Shown here in pieces: positions 4,478-39,536 of a stretch of DNA of 39,536 bases. The notes beneath the pieces are model-generated. The model searched no databases and had not been told where the DNA came from. It worked only from the letters and a program-made list of their open reading frames with translations. Positions within the stretch are counted from its first letter, which is position 1. Each line of letters starts with the position of its first letter. Source of the DNA: Bacilli bacterium (GTDB taxonomy: Bacteria; Bacillota_I; Bacilli_A; RF39; UBA660); the NCBI GenBank assembly GCA_017542465.1, contig JAFXXB010000022.1, positions 1 through 39,536 of the forward strand, read 5' to 3'. A program made the position numbers and the translations under genes.

Positions 4478-6883
4478 TTATATATCTTCTTCTCTTAAAT
4501 AATCTTTAGCTTTATTCTTTAAATCATCTAATGTATAAATCTTAACTGAATAATATTTACTATTATTAGATATTATTACTCTATCATCTTCAAGTTTAGC
4601 TAAACTCTTTATATGACCTACTTTATTATAATCTTTATCAATTATATATGAATCAGATATATCACCTAAATATATTCTTCCATATTTATCTTTACCATAG
4701 TAATGATTAATTTTACCAACTTTATTAAGATATTTTAATAGTTTCTTATCTTTTGTACTATAAATCGCCACATCTTCATTTGTATAATTAACAAATAATA
4801 ATTCTTGATTTGTATCATAGAATACATTATTAACTAAATTCTTACTTCTTAAATCATATTTTTCTTTTACTTTATCTAATTCAGATGGAGTAATTGATTC
4901 ATCTTTAGGATAATCTATTTTAACATCTTCTTCTTTAATATCATCATTAGTTTTAGGTTCATATAATATTATTCTATTCTCATTATTAGGTATTAGTAAA
5001 TAACCATCTTGAGATATAGCAACTTTAATATAACTATCCATATTGAATTCATATTTACCTTTATATTCAATACTATTCTTATATTCCATATTTATATAAT
5101 TAACATGTCCATTCTTTAAGAATACTAAATATATTTCTTTATTCATAAATGAATATAAATCAATTATTTCACTGTCAGTATGGAATGTTTGAATTAAATC
5201 ACCATCTTTAGCATTAAATACACTAATCTTATCATATGATGCAATAGCTATATGATTCTTACCATCTTCATATGATCTATTTAGGTATTTACCCCATACA
5301 TCATCATAACTCTTAGACCAATTAGTTTTATCATTTAAATAATTATATGAAGTAATAATTGTATTATATTTATTCTTATATGAATTATTTACTAAGATAT
5401 ATGCATTATCACCTATAGTCATAATTCCATTCATATATCCAGCTGTGAATGATATCATATTTATTTCTTTTCCATCACTTGTAGATATAACATGAACAGT
5501 CATTGAATCTTTCACATCTAAACTAAAGTTTTCAACTGTAGTACTAGCAAATAAATATTTACTATCATCTGAATAATATAATTCCTTCATATATTTGTCT
5601 GTTGATGTAGTTTTAGTTACTTCTCTATCATCTTTAACACTATAAATGTGTAAGTTATCACCATCAGTATATGATAAGAATTCTCCATTTGAACTACCAC
5701 AAACAGAAATATAAGACCATTTTTCTTTTTCAAATTCTTTAACTACTTTTCCATCACTTGTATTTACTATTACTACATTACCTTTATCATTAATAAATGC
5801 TAGTTTATCATTTCCTATAAATGAGAATATTCTTTCACTACTTACACTACCATTAGCTTTATAATTAGCTATTACATTTAATGTTTTAGAATCAAATAAA
5901 GTGATTTCTTCTGATTCATCATATACAGCAGCATATTTATTATCAGCACTTGATTTAATAAAATCTGCTACACCCTTAGTTTTTATTTCAGTAATAGATT
6001 TATATGATGATCCAACATCATATACACCTAAACTTTCAGATAAAGCATATTCAGCATCAGCTGTATAAGGCATTCTGACACCCTCAAACTCTGTTAATGC
6101 ATAATAAGCGTTTTTAATAGCATCATATCTGTTATCTATTTTTAAGTTTTCAACTGATTCTCTTGCAAGTGATAATGCTTGATGACTTGCTAATATATTT
6201 GCTTGAGTATTAATCTTAATAAACATAGTAAGTGCAAAAATCGCAAATGCTAAACTAGCAAAAGTAACACCTAAAGAAATATTAAGTATTTGTTTTTGCT
6301 TTCTTAATTTATGTCTTTGTTTTAAATCATCATACTCTAAGTTATACATTGGAGCTATTAATCTTAACTTTTCTTCTTTTATTTTCTTTAATACTATTCC
6401 TTTGTTTTCTCCTCTTACATCTGCTGCAAGTGGTTCAACTAAAGTCTTCTCTATTTTTGCTTTTCCATCTTTTGTCTTAACCATTACCTCATCATATAAT
6501 ACTTCTTCTGGGAAAGACTCATCTGGTTCACCTTCAATTAAAACACAAAAGATATTTTTTCTTCCTCTTAATTTCTTAAATGTTTCAATTTCCTTCTTGC
6601 ACCATAAAGAATCTTTTAATCTAGGAGAACAAATAACAATTAAATATTTAGAATCCTTTAAAGCTTCAATAATTGGATCTTCAAGATTACTTGATAAAGG
6701 TAATTCATCTTGATCTCTAAATACTCTCTTAATAGTTCTTCCTTGAATGTTTAATTTCTTTTTTAATGCTTTAGGTAATTCATAAGTTTCTAATACTTTA
6801 TGTAAATTCTCTGCAACATACTTATCTAAATCACAATGTCTATAACTTATAAAAGCATCATATTTATATTCTCTATTTTCCAT
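4478..6883 (-). CDS. TIR-domain, membrane and beta-propeller-like protein
   Basis: An 801-residue protein in three parts. Residues 7 to about 150 form a TIR domain: YDAFISYRH at the first strand, the RVFRDQDELPLS loop, LIVICSPRLKDS, and WCKKEIE with Glu98 where NAD-cleaving TIR domains keep their catalytic glutamate. A single membrane helix lies at about residues 200-223, and a roughly 560-residue extracytoplasmic region has repeated short beta-rich segments (SxDGK, FDSKTLNVI) like a degenerate WD40/propeller. Such TIR-membrane-propeller proteins occur in many Firmicutes, and a sensing or defence role is inference. The ATG at 6881-6883 is favoured over the one at 6907 because GAGGGTGAT lies just before it. 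An extended -10 (TGGTATAAT, about 6910) follows the upstream terminator, so the gene appears monocistronic. Confidence 0.85.
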   Translation of the reverse strand: MENREYKYDAFISYRHCDLDKYVAENLHKVLETYELPKALKKKLNIQGRTIKRVFRDQDELPLSSNLEDPIIEALKDSKYLIVICSPRLKDSLWCKKEIETFKKLRGRKNIFCVLIEGEPDESFPEEVLYDEVMVKTKDGKAKIEKTLVEPLAADVRGENKGIVLKKIKEEKLRLIAPMYNLEYDDLKQRHKLRKQKQILNISLGVTFASLAFAIFALTMFIKINTQANILASHQALSLARESVENLKIDNRYDAIKNAYYALTEFEGVRMPYTADAEYALSESLGVYDVGSSYKSITEIKTKGVADFIKSSADNKYAAVYDESEEITLFDSKTLNVIANYKANGSVSSERIFSFIGNDKLAFINDKGNVVIVNTSDGKVVKEFEKEKWSYISVCGSSNGEFLSYTDGDNLHIYSVKDDREVTKTTSTDKYMKELYYSDDSKYLFASTTVENFSLDVKDSMTVHVISTSDGKEINMISFTAGYMNGIMTIGDNAYILVNNSYKNKYNTIITSYNYLNDKTNWSKSYDDVWGKYLNRSYEDGKNHIAIASYDKISVFNAKDGDLIQTFHTDSEIIDLYSFMNKEIYLVFLKNGHVNYINMEYKNSIEYKGKYEFNMDSYIKVAISQDGYLLIPNNENRIILYEPKTNDDIKEEDVKIDYPKDESITPSELDKVKEKYDLRSKNLVNNVFYDTNQELLFVNYTNEDVAIYSTKDKKLLKYLNKVGKINHYYGKDKYGRIYLGDISDSYIIDKDYNKVGHIKSLAKLEDDRVIISNNSKYYSVKIYTLDDLKNKAKDYLREEDI

Positions 6884-7471: not shown

Positions 7472-7615
7472 TTATTCTATAAAACCATTACTTACCTCTT
7501 TAATCTTATCTAATTCCAAACTTGTAACCTGATAAGCATTCCATGCATTATGGCAAGTATAACCTGTTGTATGTGATTCAACAATATTACCCCAGTCAAA
7601 TAGTATTAATTTCAT
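7472..7615 (-). pseudogene. Truncated HAD-like hydrolase gene (47 codons)
   Basis: The ORF begins MKLILFDWGNIVESH, the first strand and motif I of a HAD-superfamily hydrolase. The nucleophile position is FDWGN and the usual second Asp is replaced by Gly-Asn. The frame ends in TAA after 47 residues, and no continuation of the roughly 200-residue family is present. The ribosome binding site GGTGAT and an extended -10 (TGTTATAAT, about 7632) upstream are intact, so the fragment may still be expressed. I read it as a gene remnant. Confidence 0.55.
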
Positions 7616-7642
7616 TTTTATCACCATTTTAATTATAACATT

Positions 7643-7669
7643 AAAAAAGATGGATTAATATCCATCTTA
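7643..7669 (-). terminator. Intrinsic terminator of the 896-aa InlB-repeat gene
   Basis: Arms AAGATGGA/TCCATCTT followed by six Ts on the minus strand. The TAA stop at 7667-7669 begins the hairpin. Confidence 0.85.
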
Positions 7670-10357
7670 ATTACTATAATAGTTACCCATCTTTACTTTA
7701 ATATTCTTAAATGTTCCTTTTACAAATCTGAATGGTACTCCTTCTTCATTATAAGTAGCACCAAATGTTAAAGGAGCATCATAAGTAAATGTTGGGTCAA
7801 CATCACTTAAATATTCTAATGGTTCACCATTGAATGAATAATATAACTTATTATTAGCTCTAACTATTCTTACACTTTGTACATCAGGTTCAATTCTAGA
7901 AACTACCGAAGTTCCTTTTCCGCCTTTAATAGAATATGTTATTAAAGGACCTTCATCAAGTCTAAATACAAATCCAGGAACAATATCATTTACATTTACC
8001 AATCCCGACTCATCTTTAGATCCTATCAATGTTTTATGTTTTGAACTATCATCTGGATCATCTAACAATAAGTTATCTATTTCCATATATATTTCGAAGT
8101 CTTTTTCAATGTTTTCTCCATTAAATAGATTTATACCAGTATCAATAAATGTTTTATCTGCATATGCACTACATTCAGCACCAGTCATTTCATTGTATGC
8201 ACCATTAAATGTACATGCACCTAATTGAGAGAATACAACTGGGAATGGATCAGTATCAGACCATCTAGTATATAAAGTCATATCACTTGTTGGAATGTAA
8301 TCATTCTTAATTTCAATTCCACCAGTTAATTCTGTATACCATCCATTAAAATATTTGCCATCTAATGTTGAATTAGGTAAATCATTAATCATTTCACCAG
8401 CATGAACATCAAGTGATGTTGGTGAAACACTTCCTCCATTAGGATTTAATGTAATAGTATATGTAGGATTTAAATATATTTCTTTATAATTAATTCCTTC
8501 GACCACTTCTATTTTATTCTTTAATGTAGTTCTATCTTCAATTTCATCAAATCTACTATAATCTCCAATAGTTGAATTGATACCATTACTTTTACCTAAT
8601 AATACACCATCATACATCTTTAAATTATTTGATGTAGATAAGCCATATGCTTTACCTCTAATATATGGAGTACTATTTGCTACACCATCATTTTTACCTA
8701 TAACTAATACACCAGCATTATTAACACCACTAGATTCTTGAGCAATAATAGTACCATCTTCAATATACATTGTACCTGTTTCAGTATTTTGAACAGCCCC
8801 TCTTTGACTAGTTACATTAGTTAATATTGAGTTTCCTTTAATAGTTAATGTTCCTTCATTATAAACCGCTTGTCTACTACCTGTTCCATTTAAATCAGCA
8901 CCATCGATTATCGCAACAGCATTAGGATAGTTGTTAATAACACCTGCTGGTGCATCACAGTTAAATGTTCCACCAATAATATTTAAAGTTCCATAGTTTT
9001 TAATTGTACTACATGTGTTTTTAGTACATGGATTATTAACAACATAACCTGTTGCATCTAAAACAATATTTCTATTTTCAGGTATAATAATTTGTTCTGA
9101 TACACTCTTAATAATTGTTACCTTTGTTTCATCAGAAGTATCAATAGAATCAAGTGCTTTTTTAATTGATGTAAAGAATTCACCATTTATTTCAGCTACT
9201 GCATCCAATGGTACCCAATTAGCAACATAACTCTTATCACCAGTACTATGAGTTTTAATCTTAACAGACTTACTAGGCTTATTACCATTTGATCCTGTCC
9301 ATCCTCTAAACTCATAATCTTCTTTTGTTGGATTATTTAAAGTGATTGTTTCATCTTCATAAGTATATGTATTAGGATTTAAAGGAGAAACTGTTCCACC
9401 ATCTAAATCGTAAGTTATAGTATAAACAGCAATTAAATACTCACCTTTAATAGACATATTATCATATACTTTTGTATCTGGAAGAACTTCTTCGCCAGCT
9501 TCATCAATCCATCTAACAAATGTATATCCATCTCTTTCTATAGGATCAATTGTTCCAATTACATCACCATATTTATAAATAATAGTTTGAATTATATTAT
9601 TATCATCATCTAAAATATTAATACTATATTCTTCAAATCTACCCTTTACTACAATGTCATTAAAAGAAATAATCATTTCATTTTCTTCAAGTGATCTAGT
9701 GTAATTAATTACAAATGGTATTCCAATTATTATTAAACATAATAGTAATAAACTGCATAATATAATTTTATATTTCTTTTCTAATTTCATTAATAAATAG
9801 ATAATAACAAATAATGCTAAAGTAATAACAAATAGATATATATAAATATTATCACCTGTTGTAGGATTAATAATTATATCATCATCAATAATGATGTCGT
9901 CACCTTTTACTTCTTCTTCAGTAGCATATTTAATAGATATCTTTAAATCTTTAATATCTACACTATCATAATTAATTAACTCATTAGTATATTTTAAAGT
10001 TACAAATATAGATTTAGTTTCTTTAGAATAAAAATAGTTTTCATCATATTCATAAGATATAGAAATGTTAGCATTTGTATTATTATCACTTATAGACTCA
10101 ACCTTATAACCAAAATTATTATTATTTCTAATAACTAATTCGAGAGTTACTGCATCGCCTTTACTGTTAAATGTAATATTACTTGTTATTTCACGAGACG
10201 AGAAAACAGGTTCAACTACATCGATTGTCCCTACTGTTTCCTTGACCTTAACACTATCAACAGTAAAGTCTGCAACGCTAGCATTTACAGTCTTTACACC
10301 TATAATTGATAGTATTAATAATACGATAATTATTAATTTTACGCGTATTTTCGTCAT
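7667..10357 (-). CDS. InlB-repeat, beta-helix and LamG-like surface protein
   Basis: An 896-residue surface protein. In order: signal peptide (1 to about 26); an extracytoplasmic domain shared with the next gene (28-155, containing GTIDVVEP and SSREITSNI); an NPTTGD motif at 164-169; a membrane helix (171-190) followed by KLEKKYK; and a second helix (198-218). Then come two InlB/Flg_new repeats (about 311-382 and 632-699), which flank a right-handed beta-helix-like region (430-600, with YNEGTLTIKGNS turns). A LamG-like C-terminal domain follows (about 735-896). The NPTTGD-helix-basic segment looks like a sortase sorting signal but is internal. Listeria InlB repeats are adhesive, so binding to host or mucus is inference. 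It has its own promoter and terminator and a leader similar to that of its paralogue at 10442-17554. Confidence 0.8.
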   Translation of the reverse strand: MTKIRVKLIIIVLLILSIIGVKTVNASVADFTVDSVKVKETVGTIDVVEPVFSSREITSNITFNSKGDAVTLELVIRNNNNFGYKVESISDNNTNANISISYEYDENYFYSKETKSIFVTLKYTNELINYDSVDIKDLKISIKYATEEEVKGDDIIIDDDIIINPTTGDNIYIYLFVITLALFVIIYLLMKLEKKYKIILCSLLLLCLIIIGIPFVINYTRSLEENEMIISFNDIVVKGRFEEYSINILDDDNNIIQTIIYKYGDVIGTIDPIERDGYTFVRWIDEAGEEVLPDTKVYDNMSIKGEYLIAVYTITYDLDGGTVSPLNPNTYTYEDETITLNNPTKEDYEFRGWTGSNGNKPSKSVKIKTHSTGDKSYVANWVPLDAVAEINGEFFTSIKKALDSIDTSDETKVTIIKSVSEQIIIPENRNIVLDATGYVVNNPCTKNTCSTIKNYGTLNIIGGTFNCDAPAGVINNYPNAVAIIDGADLNGTGSRQAVYNEGTLTIKGNSILTNVTSQRGAVQNTETGTMYIEDGTIIAQESSGVNNAGVLVIGKNDGVANSTPYIRGKAYGLSTSNNLKMYDGVLLGKSNGINSTIGDYSRFDEIEDRTTLKNKIEVVEGINYKEIYLNPTYTITLNPNGGSVSPTSLDVHAGEMINDLPNSTLDGKYFNGWYTELTGGIEIKNDYIPTSDMTLYTRWSDTDPFPVVFSQLGACTFNGAYNEMTGAECSAYADKTFIDTGINLFNGENIEKDFEIYMEIDNLLLDDPDDSSKHKTLIGSKDESGLVNVNDIVPGFVFRLDEGPLITYSIKGGKGTSVVSRIEPDVQSVRIVRANNKLYYSFNGEPLEYLSDVDPTFTYDAPLTFGATYNEEGVPFRFVKGTFKNIKVKMGNYYSN

Positions 10358-10441: not shown

Positions 10442-13400
10442 TTATTCGATCATATAATCTCTAAAGGCTTGTATTAAATCATCAAGATTTTGTCTTTCTT
10501 GTTGTGTTTGACAATCTTGTACAAACCAACTATATACTCCTCCATCATCATTAATAGAATTATACATATAAACAAATTTTTGATCCTTACTTACACTTGA
10601 ATTAGGATCAGTAGCATAATATCTATGCCTATTAACTAATCCAAAGAAATATGATAATTCATAATCTTCAAGCATATCTTCTTCAGTTACACCTAATAGA
10701 CCTTCAAGTATATATGCTAATGTACCAGTTCTATCAGTACCAATTCTACAATGGAAATATACTTTCTTTCCAGCTATTATATCTTCCATTACTTCTATAA
10801 CTAAATCTCTAGATAATTTATAATTATCATATTGAGTTTGATAATCAATTTGATAATGCTTGATTTCTCTGTGTTTAAATTGATCTGTTGGGAATTGAGC
10901 CTCAGTAGTTGGTATTTCAGAACTCTTTCTTAAATCTATTTCTTCATTAATACCTAACTTAGCTAATTGAGTAACATTATTAGTATCACTATAAAGTCTC
11001 TCACCTCTAAATATTATTCCATATTTAAGAGTTCCATCAACTGTTCCATCACCATCAGTATCAACTTTAAGTCCACCTAAGTCACGTGCATTTCTTACCC
11101 CATTAATATTAAGTGTTCTTCTATTTCCTTCAGCCTTAACTAATCCGTGAACTTGTGGGTCACTATCAAGTTCCCAATAATATGTTTGCCCTGGAATCAT
11201 ATTATATATTACACCATTATCTGATGTAGTATATGTTACAGGACTTCCTTTTTCTTTATTGGCTTCACTTGAATCATAAACATTTATTTGTCCTGTAAAG
11301 CCTGTATCATATCCATTTGGTTTATCACATAGATTTGTGCCAGATGTTGAACATGTGTTTTCATTACACTTACAACCATAATAATTGAAATTTGCATCCA
11401 TATTTGCTTGGAATGTTGATTGATCATTTTTCCAAGTACCAATGCTATTATAATATGCTGTCATAACATCATTAGTCATATTGAAATTATCTATTTCAGT
11501 TGATGCTTCATAATGCCACTTAGCAACATATGTTTCATTACCTTGAGGGATAGTATGCTCATCTACTAATATTCCATCAGTAAGATTTGTATACCATCCA
11601 TCAAAAGTATAAACGCCTCTTGTTGGTGTTGGTAATTGATTACCAATTTCTTGTCCTTTATCAACATGTAATGTATTTGGACTAACTGTTCCACCATTAG
11701 GTTCTAAAGTTACTTTATATGTAGTTGGAGTTAACGAATAATACAATCTATAATAAGTAATAGTGCCTTCAGTAATTGAATCAGTTACTTTGCTTGCTCC
11801 TTCTTCTGTATCTTGAACAGTATCTTCATTCTCAATAGCTGCTTTCTTACCCATAATCATACCATCATATATATTTACATTTCCTTTTATTCCTAGTTGA
11901 TTATTATTTGTTGCATCTGATCCAGATTTAACTTCAATTATATCAGTATCATATATACCATCTTTTTCACCAATATTAACTGTTCCGGATGCATTTAATA
12001 TTGCATTAAAATTCTTAGAATAAATAGTACCACTTAATACAGTTGTTACACCATTATTTAAATTATGAAGCGCAGCTCTATCACCTTTATTTTCAATGTA
12101 TGAATTATCTTTAATAACTACAGTACCACCATTATTATAAACACCTTGTCTACTTCTTGTATTTATAATGCTAGCATTTGAAACATGCAATGTTGAGTTT
12201 GACTGAACATTTACTACACCTTGAGCAATATCACTTGCAATAGTACCATTCTTAATCTCTAAGAATTTAATATTACTATCAATTGCATTTCCAGAAGTAA
12301 CTGTAAATGTTTTATTATTTAAATCTAATATTACATATCTATTTAATTTATTTGAATCTGTTAAATCAATCTTATCAGATGAGAAATCCTTTAATATCTT
12401 TATAGTAGTTTTATCTGCATCAGTTCCAGTTGGATTATTTACAATTGGCACATCAGCAAAAGCAGCTGATAAAGTACTATAAAATGCACCATCTATTTCA
12501 GCGATTGTACCAACAGGAATCCACTTAGCAACAAATGTAACATCACTTGTAATAATAGTTTCTTCAGTTACTTCAGTCGAATAAGTTGAATCAGTATACC
12601 ATCCAGCAAAATCAAAATCAACTTTGCCAGTACTTGGTAATGTACCTATAGCTGTATTCTTAGTTACTTCTATATCTTCAACAGTATCTCCACCTTGTGT
12701 GTCAAAACTTACTACAAATGTATTAGATACTTCATGAACTTTAACATTAACTGTTTTTGTTGTATTAGATATCAATCCAGTTATTGTAATTGTAGTATCA
12801 CCAGCACTTAATGCCATTATAACACCATCAGAATCAACTGAAGCAATAGTACTATCTGTTGATGTGAACTCACGTGGTTCAACCAAATTAATATTGTTAA
12901 TAACAATTCTATCTGATTCACCAACAGATAATATGAAATTGTCTTTTTCTAGAGTCGAATCCTCAACATTAACTGACCATCCAGCGTATAATGTTTCATA
13001 TCCATTTGGAACATATGTTGAATCAATTTGAGTAGTATAATCACTTGATGTGAACCATCCAATAAATTGATGATCAGACTTTGTTGGTGTTGGTAAAGTA
13101 CCTATTGCATCACCTTTATCAATAGCTATTACACTATTTCCTGATAATGTTCCACCATTAGTATTTAATCTAATAATATATTGATCATTTATTAAGTTCA
13201 TTGGAACTTCAATAATAGGTTTAATACAATTATTTGAAGTATTATATTTATCAGATGTTACTTCATCTAATTTTCTTGTATCATTACGATATCTTATTCT
13301 TTTACCATCTGATTCTTGTTCTAACCATGCAGTACTTCTTTCACCTATACCTGAATATAAACTATTTTCAAATAAGAACTCATATCCATTTAATGCACCA

Positions 13401-16400
13401 TCAGTTTTTAGTTCAGAATATGTTTTATTAGTCATATCCTCTATTTCTGATAATCTAATGAATCTAGCAGGTCTATAATCATCAGTTTGTATTTCAAATG
13501 TTACAGGTAAATTACTCCATTGTGTTGTTGTTGGAAGTAATGTTAATGACGTATCATAGTTATAATATACATTTATATCGCTTTGTCCTTTATCACCACT
13601 GAATGTTATATATGATATAAGAACAGCATTATCACCATTATTAGTTACATAATAGAATCTTTGATTATAGCCAGAGCCATCTACATTACAATCAAAAGCA
13701 TCTCCTGGTTTTAACGTATCAGAATCGATTATGTTACCATATTCAATTGTATCACCAGATGAATAACCATTAGCTCTACAACCTTTTCCACTTGCCGAAT
13801 TACATGTTTCAGTATGTAATGTTGTAGATTTAACACATATAGTTCCAATCCACTTAGCAATTAATGTAATATTACCTTCAGGTACATAAGTTGAATCAAC
13901 CTTAATACCATCTGTTAAATTTGTATACCATCCATCAAATGTTTTTCCTGTTTGAGTTGGTGTTGGTAATGTTCCTATAGTATCTCCAATATTTACTGTT
14001 ATCGATGTTGGATTAACACTTCCTCCATTAGCATTTAATGTTACTGTATATACTGAACCCGCTCCATATTCTATTTTGCTCTTTGGTACTTCTATTACAG
14101 GACGGACACCGCCGAAATTCGTATTGTTGGTGCTGCCGTTGCGGATGCTGCGGTAGTAGCCACCTTCATACCAACCGGTGTCAGAGTTAAACGCGTAAGG
14201 CGTTTCTAACCAAGTTCCGGTGTTTCCTATTGTTGATTTTGCGTATCTTGTGTTTTCCATTATATAGTTACAGCTATCTAATTCTCCTGTTGTCTTTCTT
14301 CCTACTTCTGTCAAATTACATCCTGACATTAATTCTTTCGCTGTTAATAGTCTTGCTGCATATCCTTCGTAACTAAAGTCTGTTGGTAGTGTTCCGCCAC
14401 CAGCTACTGTTGGTGAATCATGTGTTGATAGATATTCTGCTAGGATTGCACGTGTATCACTTTTTAAACTAACATTACTCCACTGACTTGTTGTTGGTAA
14501 TTGAGATACTAATGTTCTTGGTCCATGCCAGTTTTCATTACTAGAATCATATGCAAATGTGTTCTTATTACATGATACTCCACTTGTTATATTATTATAA
14601 TATATTAATACTGCTGTACTTGTATCAAATTCTTTTGAAGAAGTATCATAGTAATCACTTACATAATAGAATCTTTCTGTTAATTCATCAAAATCTCCAT
14701 CTCCATTTACATCACATGTAAATGCATCTCCTGAAGTTAATGTTCCACTTGTTCCACAAGATCCATATGTTATTGTACTTGTTCCTTTTGAACCGCTTGT
14801 TGTATATCCTGCACCTGAACAATAATAAGTCTCATCTGTTTGCGAACATGTCTCTTCATGTAGTTTTACTGCTCTTCTACAAACTATTCCATCACCTATT
14901 GTGATGTTTTCGTTATTAGAACATGTATTCTCAGATAATCTTGTTATATTTTCATTATCTGCACATGTTTTTAATTCATCAAATTTAGCATATATTGTTG
15001 TATCTTCCGTTATTGCAGTATTTTCAAAGTCAAATTTAGTTGTATACTGATCAGTTGTATACCAATCATCAAATACATATCCTGTTTTTGTTGGATCAGT
15101 AGTTGGTCTTGTTACTGTACCACCAGAATTAATTGTTTGACTTGGTACTGTTGATCCTCCATCTGTATTAAATGTTACTGTATAAGTATTAATATTATAT
15201 TTAGCGTAAATAGTTGTATCACTTGTTATTATTGTATCAAAATTAAATACTGTACTATATGTGTCATCTGTATACCAGTTATCAAATGTATAACCTGTTT
15301 TTGTTGGATCAGTTGGTTTTGTTATTTTATTTCCATAAATAATTGTTTGATCTGCTACTTCTGATCCTCCATCTGTATTAAATGTTACTGTATATTCTTC
15401 TCTATCATATACATATTCTACTCTAGATTGACCATTTCCATTTATTGTAACTTGTTGTAAGCTTGGTGTCTTAAATCCAGTTCGTGGAATAACTGGTGCT
15501 GATACAGTAGTATCTGTAGTTCCTGTCTCAGTAGCGGTTTCAGTAACATAATCACCATTTAATGTTTCATATTTATGATCAACATAGTAAGTTGTATCAG
15601 TGTTAGCTGTATATAATGGTTCAACACTTACATTACTTGTACCAATAGTTATAGTAGTTTCTTGAGTTGTTGCACCATTTGACCAACCATCAAATGTATA
15701 ACCAGCTCTGTTTATTGCGTTTAATATTACTTGTTCTTCATAATAATATGTTCCAGATTTATCTGCTTCAACATACTCTGGATGGACAATTGTTAATGTA
15801 TATTGATTTCTAGTATATTCATAAGTAATACTTGCTTCTCCATCACCAGTTATTGTTATGTTTTGTTGAGCAGGACTTGTAAATCCTTCTCTTGAAACTA
15901 ATGCTGCTGGAATAGTTGTATCTGTTGTTCCAGTTCCTGGAGCATTTACGGTTTCCCATCCACCATTTAATGTTTCATATTTATGAACTACTAGATATGG
16001 TGTATCAGTATTAGCAGTGTATAATGGTTCAACACTTATATCACTTGTGCCAATTGTTACTGTTATTTCTTGAGTTGTTGCACCATTTGACCAACCATCG
16101 AATGTATAACCAGCTCTAGTCTTTGCATTTAATGTTACTTGTTCTCCATAATAATATGTTCCTGATTTATCTACTTCAACATACTCTGGATGAACAATTG
16201 TTAAATTATACCGATTTCTTAAATATTCATAAGTTATTTCAGTATTTCCAAATCTACTAATTGTTGTAGTTGTTGTTGAAGGAGCAGTAAATCCTTCATA
16301 ATTCTTAACACTTGGAGTAATAACTGCTCCTGTTGTACCAGTTAATTCATCCTTGTCAGATTCTAAATAACTACCATTAATTTGTTGTTGATAATGATAT

Positions 16401-17554
16401 ACAACATATGGTGTATCTGTATTTTCTGTCCATATTGCAAATAATTCTACTGAACCTTCAGTTAATAAATTTTTAATTGCTTGACCATCTGTATAAGAAT
16501 TACCTGTACCAGCAGCAGTTGTATTCCATTCTACAAAATGATATCCAGTATAAGTAAATGCATTAGTAGTTAATGCTTGTTCAACATCATATGTAAATGT
16601 TTGATTGCTCATTGAACCTTCAGCATATTCGTTATTCTTATTGAATGATACTTGATATGTATTGGCTGTATATTTTAATAATACACTTATTGGACCAGTA
16701 ATAATTGTATCTTCAGTTACCTCATTACCATTTTGATCTACATACTTATCAAATACATAACCAGTGATGTCATCATGAGTTAATGCACCTAACTTTTGAC
16801 CATATGTTATTGTTCTTGTTTCAATAACATTACCATCTTTGTCTTTAATTTGTATTTCATAGTCTTCATATTCGCCAACCAATTCAATACTAGTAAATTT
16901 TAATTTTAAAGTAATTTCTTCATTAGCATATGAAGCAATAGGAACAAATACCAATGATAAACATAATATAATTAATCCGCTCTTTATTTTTTTATCCTTA
17001 ACAAAGTAAAGTGAAAGGACAATACCAACAAAAGCAATAACTAACCACATAATATATTTTAAGATTTTATCATTTGTTGTAGGATTGATGATTATATCAT
17101 CACCTTTAATTTCCCCTTCTTCAGAAACTAAAGATAACTTGATAACCAAATCATTTATATCTACTTTATCAACATTCTTTTCTGTTTCTTTATATGTAAA
17201 AGTTATTTTAATATTGGTTGTTTCATTAGGCTGAATATAATCTGTAGAATAATTATAAGTTATAACAAATTTATCATTTGAATTATTATCAGTTATAGAA
17301 TTAATAGCGTACGCTTCAGATTCATTATTTTTAATAGTAACATCAAATGTAACATAGTCATCTTTTTGATTAAACTTAATATTACTTACTACTTCATCAG
17401 ATGATAAAACAGGATCAACTACATCAATTGTTCCACTCTTACTATCAACACTTATATCTTCTACACTAAAGCCATTTGCAGCATATGCATTAGGTATAAA
17501 TAATGCTATAAAAAATATGATTAAAATCAATAATTTCTTGATGTTATTTCTCAT
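10442..17554 (-). CDS. Giant InlB-repeat surface protein with C-terminal tyrosine phosphatase
   Basis: A 2370-residue protein. In order: signal peptide (1-25); N-terminal domain shared with the 896-aa protein (26-150); NPTTND (157-162), membrane helix (167-185) and basic KDKKIKSG; then a second hydrophobic segment (193-210) ending in SYA, like a signal-peptidase site. About nine InlB/Flg_new repeats follow (starting near 300, 448, 584, 720, 790, 1169, 1459, 1613 and 1946) with MucBP-like modules between the early ones. There are two Cys-rich modules, both ending in (V/I)(R/K)PxIEVP (862-1157, 1239-1452), a Big_2-like domain (1532-1607) and a beta-helix-like region (1690-1910). The C-terminus is a Y_phosphatase3-type domain (about 2141-2368) with NARDLGG, DLRKSSE and the P-loop HCRIGTDRTG (2268-2277). 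The domains suggest an adhesin carrying a phosphatase outside the cell, which is inference. Codons for residues 1112-1152 are anomalously GC-rich. Confidence 0.85.
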   Translation of the reverse strand: MRNNIKKLLILIIFFIALFIPNAYAANGFSVEDISVDSKSGTIDVVDPVLSSDEVVSNIKFNQKDDYVTFDVTIKNNESEAYAINSITDNNSNDKFVITYNYSTDYIQPNETTNIKITFTYKETEKNVDKVDINDLVIKLSLVSEEGEIKGDDIIINPTTNDKILKYIMWLVIAFVGIVLSLYFVKDKKIKSGLIILCLSLVFVPIASYANEEITLKLKFTSIELVGEYEDYEIQIKDKDGNVIETRTITYGQKLGALTHDDITGYVFDKYVDQNGNEVTEDTIITGPISVLLKYTANTYQVSFNKNNEYAEGSMSNQTFTYDVEQALTTNAFTYTGYHFVEWNTTAAGTGNSYTDGQAIKNLLTEGSVELFAIWTENTDTPYVVYHYQQQINGSYLESDKDELTGTTGAVITPSVKNYEGFTAPSTTTTTISRFGNTEITYEYLRNRYNLTIVHPEYVEVDKSGTYYYGEQVTLNAKTRAGYTFDGWSNGATTQEITVTIGTSDISVEPLYTANTDTPYLVVHKYETLNGGWETVNAPGTGTTDTTIPAALVSREGFTSPAQQNITITGDGEASITYEYTRNQYTLTIVHPEYVEADKSGTYYYEEQVILNAINRAGYTFDGWSNGATTQETTITIGTSNVSVEPLYTANTDTTYYVDHKYETLNGDYVTETATETGTTDTTVSAPVIPRTGFKTPSLQQVTINGNGQSRVEYVYDREEYTVTFNTDGGSEVADQTIIYGNKITKPTDPTKTGYTFDNWYTDDTYSTVFNFDTIITSDTTIYAKYNINTYTVTFNTDGGSTVPSQTINSGGTVTRPTTDPTKTGYVFDDWYTTDQYTTKFDFENTAITEDTTIYAKFDELKTCADNENITRLSENTCSNNENITIGDGIVCRRAVKLHEETCSQTDETYYCSGAGYTTSGSKGTSTITYGSCGTSGTLTSGDAFTCDVNGDGDFDELTERFYYVSDYYDTSSKEFDTSTAVLIYYNNITSGVSCNKNTFAYDSSNENWHGPRTLVSQLPTTSQWSNVSLKSDTRAILAEYLSTHDSPTVAGGGTLPTDFSYEGYAARLLTAKELMSGCNLTEVGRKTTGELDSCNYIMENTRYAKSTIGNTGTWLETPYAFNSDTGWYEGGYYRSIRNGSTNNTNFGGVRPVIEVPKSKIEYGAGSVYTVTLNANGGSVNPTSITVNIGDTIGTLPTPTQTGKTFDGWYTNLTDGIKVDSTYVPEGNITLIAKWIGTICVKSTTLHTETCNSASGKGCRANGYSSGDTIEYGNIIDSDTLKPGDAFDCNVDGSGYNQRFYYVTNNGDNAVLISYITFSGDKGQSDINVYYNYDTSLTLLPTTTQWSNLPVTFEIQTDDYRPARFIRLSEIEDMTNKTYSELKTDGALNGYEFLFENSLYSGIGERSTAWLEQESDGKRIRYRNDTRKLDEVTSDKYNTSNNCIKPIIEVPMNLINDQYIIRLNTNGGTLSGNSVIAIDKGDAIGTLPTPTKSDHQFIGWFTSSDYTTQIDSTYVPNGYETLYAGWSVNVEDSTLEKDNFILSVGESDRIVINNINLVEPREFTSTDSTIASVDSDGVIMALSAGDTTITITGLISNTTKTVNVKVHEVSNTFVVSFDTQGGDTVEDIEVTKNTAIGTLPSTGKVDFDFAGWYTDSTYSTEVTEETIITSDVTFVAKWIPVGTIAEIDGAFYSTLSAAFADVPIVNNPTGTDADKTTIKILKDFSSDKIDLTDSNKLNRYVILDLNNKTFTVTSGNAIDSNIKFLEIKNGTIASDIAQGVVNVQSNSTLHVSNASIINTRSRQGVYNNGGTVVIKDNSYIENKGDRAALHNLNNGVTTVLSGTIYSKNFNAILNASGTVNIGEKDGIYDTDIIEVKSGSDATNNNQLGIKGNVNIYDGMIMGKKAAIENEDTVQDTEEGASKVTDSITEGTITYYRLYYSLTPTTYKVTLEPNGGTVSPNTLHVDKGQEIGNQLPTPTRGVYTFDGWYTNLTDGILVDEHTIPQGNETYVAKWHYEASTEIDNFNMTNDVMTAYYNSIGTWKNDQSTFQANMDANFNYYGCKCNENTCSTSGTNLCDKPNGYDTGFTGQINVYDSSEANKEKGSPVTYTTSDNGVIYNMIPGQTYYWELDSDPQVHGLVKAEGNRRTLNINGVRNARDLGGLKVDTDGDGTVDGTLKYGIIFRGERLYSDTNNVTQLAKLGINEEIDLRKSSEIPTTEAQFPTDQFKHREIKHYQIDYQTQYDNYKLSRDLVIEVMEDIIAGKKVYFHCRIGTDRTGTLAYILEGLLGVTEEDMLEDYELSYFFGLVNRHRYYATDPNSSVSKDQKFVYMYNSINDDGGVYSWFVQDCQTQQERQNLDDLIQAFRDYMIE
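14101..14220 (-). other. GC-rich patch inside the giant surface gene
   Basis: About 54% G+C over 120 bp (65 of 120 counted), against roughly 28-30% elsewhere. It encodes residues 1112-1152, the end of the first Cys-rich module, with codons such as CGC, GGC, AAC, ACC and ATC that neighbouring regions rarely use. Confidence 0.85.
15404..15811 (-). repeat. 408-bp tandem repeat, copy 2
   Basis: The second copy of a 136-codon unit in the giant surface gene, covering an InlB-like and a MucBP-like module (residues 582-717). It is highly similar to copy 1 at DNA level, for example 15733-15800 against 16141-16208. Confidence 0.8.
15812..16219 (-). repeat. 408-bp tandem repeat, copy 1
   Basis: The first copy of the 136-codon unit (residues 446-581), directly adjacent to copy 2. 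Confidence 0.8.
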
Positions 17555-39365: not shown

Positions 39366-39442
39366 GGATCTTTAGCTCAGTTGGTTAGAGCATCCGGCTC
39401 ATAACCGGGCGGTCGTAGGTTCGAGTCCTACAAGATCCACCA
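39366..39442 (+). tRNA. tRNA-Ile2 (CAT anticodon)
   Basis: 77 nt with encoded CCA: GGATCTT acceptor arm pairing with AAGATCC, D-loop AGTTGGTTAGA, anticodon loop CTCATAA, T-loop TTCGAGT. The anticodon is CAT, but the sequence follows the B. subtilis tRNA-Ile(CAT) type closely (CTTTAGCTCAGTTGG...GGCTCATAACC). It also lacks the initiator's unpaired first position, so I call it the lysidine-modified tRNA that reads AUA, a very common codon here. Confidence 0.8.
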
Positions 39443-39451
39443 TTTTTTTTT

Positions 39452-39536
39452 GCGGGTATGGCGAAATTGGCAGACGCACTAGACTTAGGATCTAGCGGGA
39501 TATCCCATGGAGGTTCAAGTCCTCTTACCCGCACCA
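39452..39536 (+). tRNA. tRNA-Leu (TAG anticodon)
   Basis: 85 nt with GCGGGTA/TACCCGC acceptor arm, anticodon loop CTTAGGA, a short variable arm and encoded CCA at the right edge. It follows tRNA-Ile2 after a 9-T spacer, probably on the same transcript. Confidence 0.92.

Follow-up and report, generated by a model that had tools for sequence, protein, structure and literature searches.

Among the systems described so far, those closest to the locus studied here are targets of diversity-generating retroelements (DGRs), represented by TvpA from Treponema (2y3c) and Mtd from a Bordetella phage (1yu1/1yu3), in which a lectin-like domain carries a short GC-rich C-terminal hairpin encoded by NNY codons. 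In such targets the variable region (VR) is usually placed at the C-terminus, a position that a passage in PMC8144416 explains by cis elements located in the intergenic space. The second set covers the DUF6273-type DGR targets of gut phages—the tentaclins and those of Faecalibacterium prophages—with DUF6273 presented in parts of PMC10743442 and PMC11792537 as a C-lec domain bearing DGR VRs. The third is the DGR cassette of locus L126, found in the same bacterial family as the present contig, the target of which ends with ...SFWLGSAGG...YGVRPVIEI and possesses a VR in the form of a GC island.

The window, i.e. the whole contig of 39,536 bases, contains a GC-rich patch that resembles the hairpins of TvpA and Mtd in all the features listed above, but its VR is internal to a 2370-aa repeat protein, and neither a template nor a reverse transcriptase (RT) has been found in the genome. 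The module ending with the patch has its best viral structural matches among the DUF6273-type proteins, although it belongs to a cellular surface protein and no relative of it was found on viral contigs. The L126 cassette shares with it the form of the target end and the GC island, whereas its target represents another module family and has both the RT and the template adjoining. The comparisons reported below indicate that the patch is, very probably, the variable region of a DGR target by origin.

The patch lies on the minus strand inside the open reading frame (ORF) 10442-17554, which encodes the 2370-aa surface protein. In this protein, repeats of the InlB/Listeria-Bacteroides type are combined with two Cys-rich modules and a tyrosine-phosphatase-like C-terminal part, the Pfam matches being Flg_new in nine stretches, Flg_new_2 in six stretches and Y_phosphatase3. 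The tyrosine-phosphatase-like domain (PF13350, residues 2149-2304) stands at the end of a giant surface adhesin, which is an unusual pairing. The first Cys-rich module (268 aa; 14087-14890, minus strand) has a C-type-lectin-like model and known relatives, and the patch closes it. The second, more distant module (13213-13846, minus strand) has an AT-rich tail; its end CIKPIIEVP is indeed written in AT-rich codons, as noticed in the first-pass annotation.

The GC-rich stretch of 120 bp reported there was also borne out with respect to its place, base count and shift in codons. Positions 14100-14219 represent the GC maximum among the 120-bp windows of all 39,536 bases, with 65 of the 120 bases being G or C against a contig-wide mean of 32.6 (s.d. 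6.4); the sole competing peak, 63 at 39394, corresponds to a pair of tRNA genes. In terms of codons, the patch spans 14096-14221 (minus strand) and has a GC content of 0.52-0.54; 25 of its 42 codons, read from 14221 to 14096, end with G or C—20 of them with C—as compared with 231 of 2329 in the remaining ORF. The binomial probability of 25 G/C-ending codons out of 40 at a rate of 0.108 is 5e-15, or 1e-11 after correction for 2331 windows, and 12 consecutive codons, from 14161 to 14126, all end with C. No structural RNA was detected under the patch, Rfam yielding on the whole contig just two tRNAs (39366-39533). Comparison with relatives gives sharper borders than composition does, the divergent part running from 14197 (TAC, following ACG CCT) to approximately 14100 (CGT CC). 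The alignment with the relatives L139, L140 and L141 defines the proposed DGR VR at 14100-14203 (minus strand), its layout being a common ACG CCT start, divergent NNY codons and a common GGY-N-CGT-CC end. The GC-rich end of the VR, GGCGGTGTCCGTCC (14100-14114, minus strand), occupies the place of the initiation of mutagenic homing (IMH) element and is similar to the 3' ends of template repeats (TRs) and VRs in relatives, i.e. GGTGTCCGCCC, GGCGTCCGTCC and GGTGTCCGTCC; it may be regarded as a putative IMH element.

Relatives of the module were found in 25 of the 386 genomes of the bacterial family (E 1e-15) and at 76 loci of the genome_contigs collection, the latter originating almost throughout from gut or rumen metagenome-assembled genomes (MAGs) labelled as Bacilli, Tenericutes or Erysipelotrichaceae. 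No relatives were found in viral_contigs, and the search of PHROGs with the module gave no match. One of the modules with a GC-rich tail (0.59), L190 4381-5202, comes from a record labelled as Methanobacteriaceae archaeon (RUG12825), which is probably a misbinned contig. The nearest relatives are L139 from a sheep ileum MAG (86.9% DNA identity to the module block), L140 from UBA7476, i.e. the record of genome G422 (81.6%), and L141 from goat ileum (~80%). All three have a body rich in AT and, after it, a tail rich in GC (tail GC 0.56, 0.54 and 0.49 versus body GC 0.32, 0.34 and 0.32, respectively), share the end point and differ from each other in the tail residues. The block aligned to the C-terminal end of the L139 surface protein covers 14074-15211 (minus strand), and the L140 alignment spans 15182 to 14074; in both cases the similarity stops at 14074, just before the end of the relative's gene, the two proteins closing with IEVPK[SA]KISY and a stop. 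There are thus nine residues after the VR in L139-L141 and ~1,200 in the 2370-aa protein, making the position of the VR internal in the latter. Since tail and body travel together in L139 and L140, they form one unit, and the patch has not been set into a native module.

The differences between the contig copy and its relatives L139, L140 and L141 were counted at codon positions 1/2/3 separately for the VR and the body, and compared by the Fisher test. Against L139, the counts were 14/19/5 in the VR and 18/16/22 in the body (p 0.01); against L140, 16/19/5 and 29/23/38 (p 0.001). The relatives L139 and L140 compared with each other behaved in the same way (VR 9/16/2, body 23/22/41, p 9e-5), whereas the position test against L141 alone was not significant (p 0.096). 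VR codons that differed at the first or second position kept their third base in 24 of 26 cases against L139 (13.6 expected, p 5e-5), in 24 of 26 against L140 (13.3 expected, p 5e-5) and in 20 of 25 against L141 (10.8 expected), the expectations being derived from permutation; since shuffling predicts values well below those observed, a common preference for C is not the reason. Keeping of the third base was weaker in the body (22/29, 24/39 and 27/53 against L139, L140 and L141), but still above chance in close pairs (22/29 versus 10.5 expected), so the contrast between the VR and the body is one of degree. Changes at positions 1 and 2 of NNY codons with the third base kept, as seen in DGR VRs, are therefore present against L139 and L140 and weaker against L141. 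Judged from the codons, this is the trace that would be expected if AAC and AAT codons of a template had been rewritten to NNC and NNT by an adenine-directed process.

The AlphaFold2 model of the module, built from 59 aligned modules (pLDDT 96.6, pTM 0.94), places the patch in the strands 238-243 and 248-253, forming a hairpin near the C-terminus. Foldseek against the PDB gave no match below E 0.001, and no sequence match to the module was obtained from Pfam or NCBIfam. The second structure comparison retrieved C-type lectins, relatives of the formylglycine enzyme, TvpA (Z 5.3) and Mtd (Z 4.4-4.6) at modest scores, mostly with Z of 4-7, the strongest match being 9qa6 (Z 9.9); the best match among viral models was a DUF6273 protein (E 1e-5). 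With these modest scores, the predicted fold appears to be C-type-lectin-like, i.e. the kind of target domain known from DGRs.

Complete DGRs do exist in the same bacterial family. A match to RVT_1, which covers all kinds of RT, is present in 224 of its 386 genomes, and 32 RT loci, picked for a DGR-like ORF length or for belonging to a module-bearing genome, were inspected; an adenine-biased TR/VR pair was found near the RT in 12 of them (4/20 and 8/12). In the cleanest pairs, 13/13, 14/14, 21/21, 20/20 and 23/24 mismatches are located at template A. The 13 tabulated pairs, i.e. the 12 RT-linked ones plus the RT-less pair of L088, all have a VR GC content of 0.46-0.62 against 0.25-0.29 for the locus, and their VRs rank within the top 1.5% GC of windows of the same length. 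Since all 13 VRs are GC islands, a short GC island is a usual mark of the DGR variable region in these bacteria. The L126 cassette, complete within 3.5 kb, comprises the target (5125-6180), the TR (6361-6468) and the RT (7472-8620), the latter being a 382-aa protein with YMDD that matches phrog_1423, Reverse transcriptase; its VR has a GC content of 0.56 in a locus of 0.27, and 21 of 21 mismatches lie at template A. The second DGR of G422 (L127 2253-5297 and 7084-7231) has as its target a 1014-aa repeat protein, its template being situated after the RT, with template A accounting for 23 of the 24 mismatches.

The diversification of a possible binding face by a DGR-like mechanism, raised in the first-pass annotation, thus finds support in the codon pattern, the TR/VR/RT cassettes of the family and the C-type-lectin-like model. 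According to the mechanism proposed here, the VR would form the hairpin at the C-terminal end of a lectin-like module, with codons that are rewritten at adenines from an RNA template; template AAC and AAT codons would become NNC and NNT, with GC-rich scaffold codons between them, and since both raise the GC content, VRs would stand out as GC islands in AT-rich genomes. A DGR would have written the contig copy, whether the module was already internal at that time or not. Probably, a DGR target gene that ended, as in relatives, nine residues past the VR was fused at this end to further adhesin repeats; the VR would thereby have become internal and is perhaps frozen, unless a cassette absent from the assembly rewrites it in trans.

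The genome of the contig (G000; 87% complete, 46 contigs) yielded no RT with the RVT_1 profile and no match to a profile built from five DGR RTs of the family, the latter having two matches—one clear and one weak—among 11 genomes of the genus. The A-relaxed pattern of 69 nt, allowing up to three mismatches, retrieved from the genome the patch itself alone, and blastn with 321 bp found no second copy there. The pattern from four VRs, applied to the 386 family genomes, recovered just the VRs of G000 and G422 and no template; scanning 28 VRs and the contig VR against the collected loci gave no template for the lineage of the contig VR. The template is likewise absent from the available sequence of the L139-L141 loci, and the contig of a same-genus genome carrying a DGR RT (L129; 3985 bp) has no GC-rich template-like stretch. 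Neither the near-copy with adenine-specific differences nor the RT, both named in the first-pass annotation as things to look for, was found in this genome; the assembly thus showed neither a template nor a DGR RT, and the VR does not have the usual C-terminal position in it. Because of the incompleteness and fragmentation of the genome, however, the absence of RT and template weighs little on the origin of the patch and more on its activity.

The reading according to which the VR is of DGR origin but frozen, its cis elements having been cut off by the fusion and the cassette lost, so that a relic drifts towards AT, seems to us about evenly poised. It agrees with the internal position and with the searches just described, as well as with the paralogues: the genome has five further module copies, all within one long ORF on a single contig (C42), all internal and with AT-rich tails (GC 0.28-0.37). 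The tails of relatives form a GC gradient from 0.63 to 0.26, as expected at different stages of drift; among the 63 loci with anchors (13 of the 76 lacked them), the excess of tail GC over body exceeds 0.08 in 28 and 0.15 in 18, and it is zero or below in five. The patch itself, however, is still strongly GC-rich, so little time would have passed; a missing cassette is weak evidence in such an assembly; and phage VRs near the start of the target are mentioned in a part of PMC10743442, so a non-C-terminal VR could be active. As the fusion would have removed both the end of the gene and the cis elements of the intergenic space, we lean slightly towards a VR that is recent and perhaps frozen.

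A wider scheme, in which the module family is diversified in trans and also archived, with shared templates and an RT on an element that escapes binning, appears unlikely. It would have two stages, with VRs first written at the ends of genes and then archived within repeat proteins. Dispersed targets—at least five in the own genome, at least eight in the genome G201 and those on more than 25 contigs in the rabbit MAG Lapin-016—would use one or a few templates, and fresh VRs would be fused or copied into internal adhesin modules, to be kept there while drifting slowly towards AT. Evidence for the DGR origin of the patch itself also comes from G201 (RUG13868; 96% complete), presumably of cow rumen origin as the label of the RUG set implies, which has at least eight module tails, with a VR GC content of 0.52-0.58 in five of the eight listed. 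It also contains three AAC-rich template-like copies on three contigs, each close to the contig end, that read TGG AGC GTG TTT GGT AAC AAC CGC AAC GTG AAC AAC and preserve W, R and V as the scaffold residues of the tails. The RT that G201 carries at C2 is retron-like, and no RT of the DGR type was observed in this genome. The template-like copy was rejected as the immediate source of the G201 VRs, since in the five tested just 15-19 of 25-37 mismatches were located at A.

Gene conversion, in which a GC-rich donor would have supplied ~120 bp to an AT-rich module and no diversification machinery would have played a part, had been the other suggestion of the first-pass annotation and is now very improbable. 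The change in composition is abrupt and in frame, as such an event would produce, but no donor was found in four collections: distant blastn against phages and plasmids gave chance matches of 30-42 bases (E 0.4-0.5), and of the stretches retrieved by peptide patterns, 14 in viral_contigs and 137 in genome_contigs, none encoded a relative. Moreover, the GC-rich tail and the AT-rich body occur jointly in three species (L139-L141), the tail differences fall on codon positions 1 and 2, and independent events at one site would be needed in dozens of relatives. An ordinary hypervariable loop under positive selection, with GC-rich codons due to chance or translational selection, is hardly more credible; a surface loop of an adhesin might well vary, and variation in AT-rich codons is seen in the tails of paralogues as well, but selection on residues leaves both the keeping of the third base and the gene-atypical codon usage unexplained, the tail GC excess above 0.15 recurs in 18 of 63 loci, and no closer relative was seen with patch differences mainly at third positions. 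The least probable is a false join of two contigs at 14100 or 14220, conceivable in a fragmented metagenome assembly with a multi-copy module family, since both patch borders lie within the unbroken alignments to L139 and L140; a false join at 14074, where the similarity ends, would be possible, but the own-genome paralogues are equally internal.

With the patch seen as a VR by origin, a GC island ending a lectin-like module in AT-rich gut bacteria would mark a DGR variable region even where template and RT have not been assembled, a kind of target that RT-first surveys miss; a passage of PMC8144416 itself places remote targets beyond the detection of that survey's approach. In a limited literature search, no description was found of VRs being recognizable by their GC-richness in AT-rich hosts. 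Provided that internal VRs are either real targets or relics in storage, they would document how surface proteins of uncultured gut Bacilli were diversified in the past.

Several further observations concern the two genomes rich in module copies. In Lapin-016 (bin61, i.e. G181; CANRBB01... records), the more than 20 copies of one genome include the loci L142, L146-L153, L157-L158, L160, L162-L165, L167-L168, L170, L177, L203 and L214; in most of them a short gene closes nine residues past the VR, the tail GC ranging from 0.63 to 0.33. A single RT of 628 aa, the size of a group II intron RT, was found there, leaving many targets with no visible DGR. In G201, the template-like copies at L223 (rc 722), L224 157 and L088 (rc 989) have ~100 upstream bases in common (GTCGACCGATAAAGATTTTAAAAATGGTACTATTGAGTGATTTATAGTATAGGGTATTAC), possibly a conserved leader of the template RNA. 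Finally, a type IV pilin-like leader (GFTLIELLAVIIILGILMIIAIPSV) starts the G201 genes L088 6301-7818, L088 9229-10551 and L224 1047-2447; this leader is shared by genes of the module and by those of another, second lectin-like family, an arrangement that would place diversified ends on pilin-like stalks.
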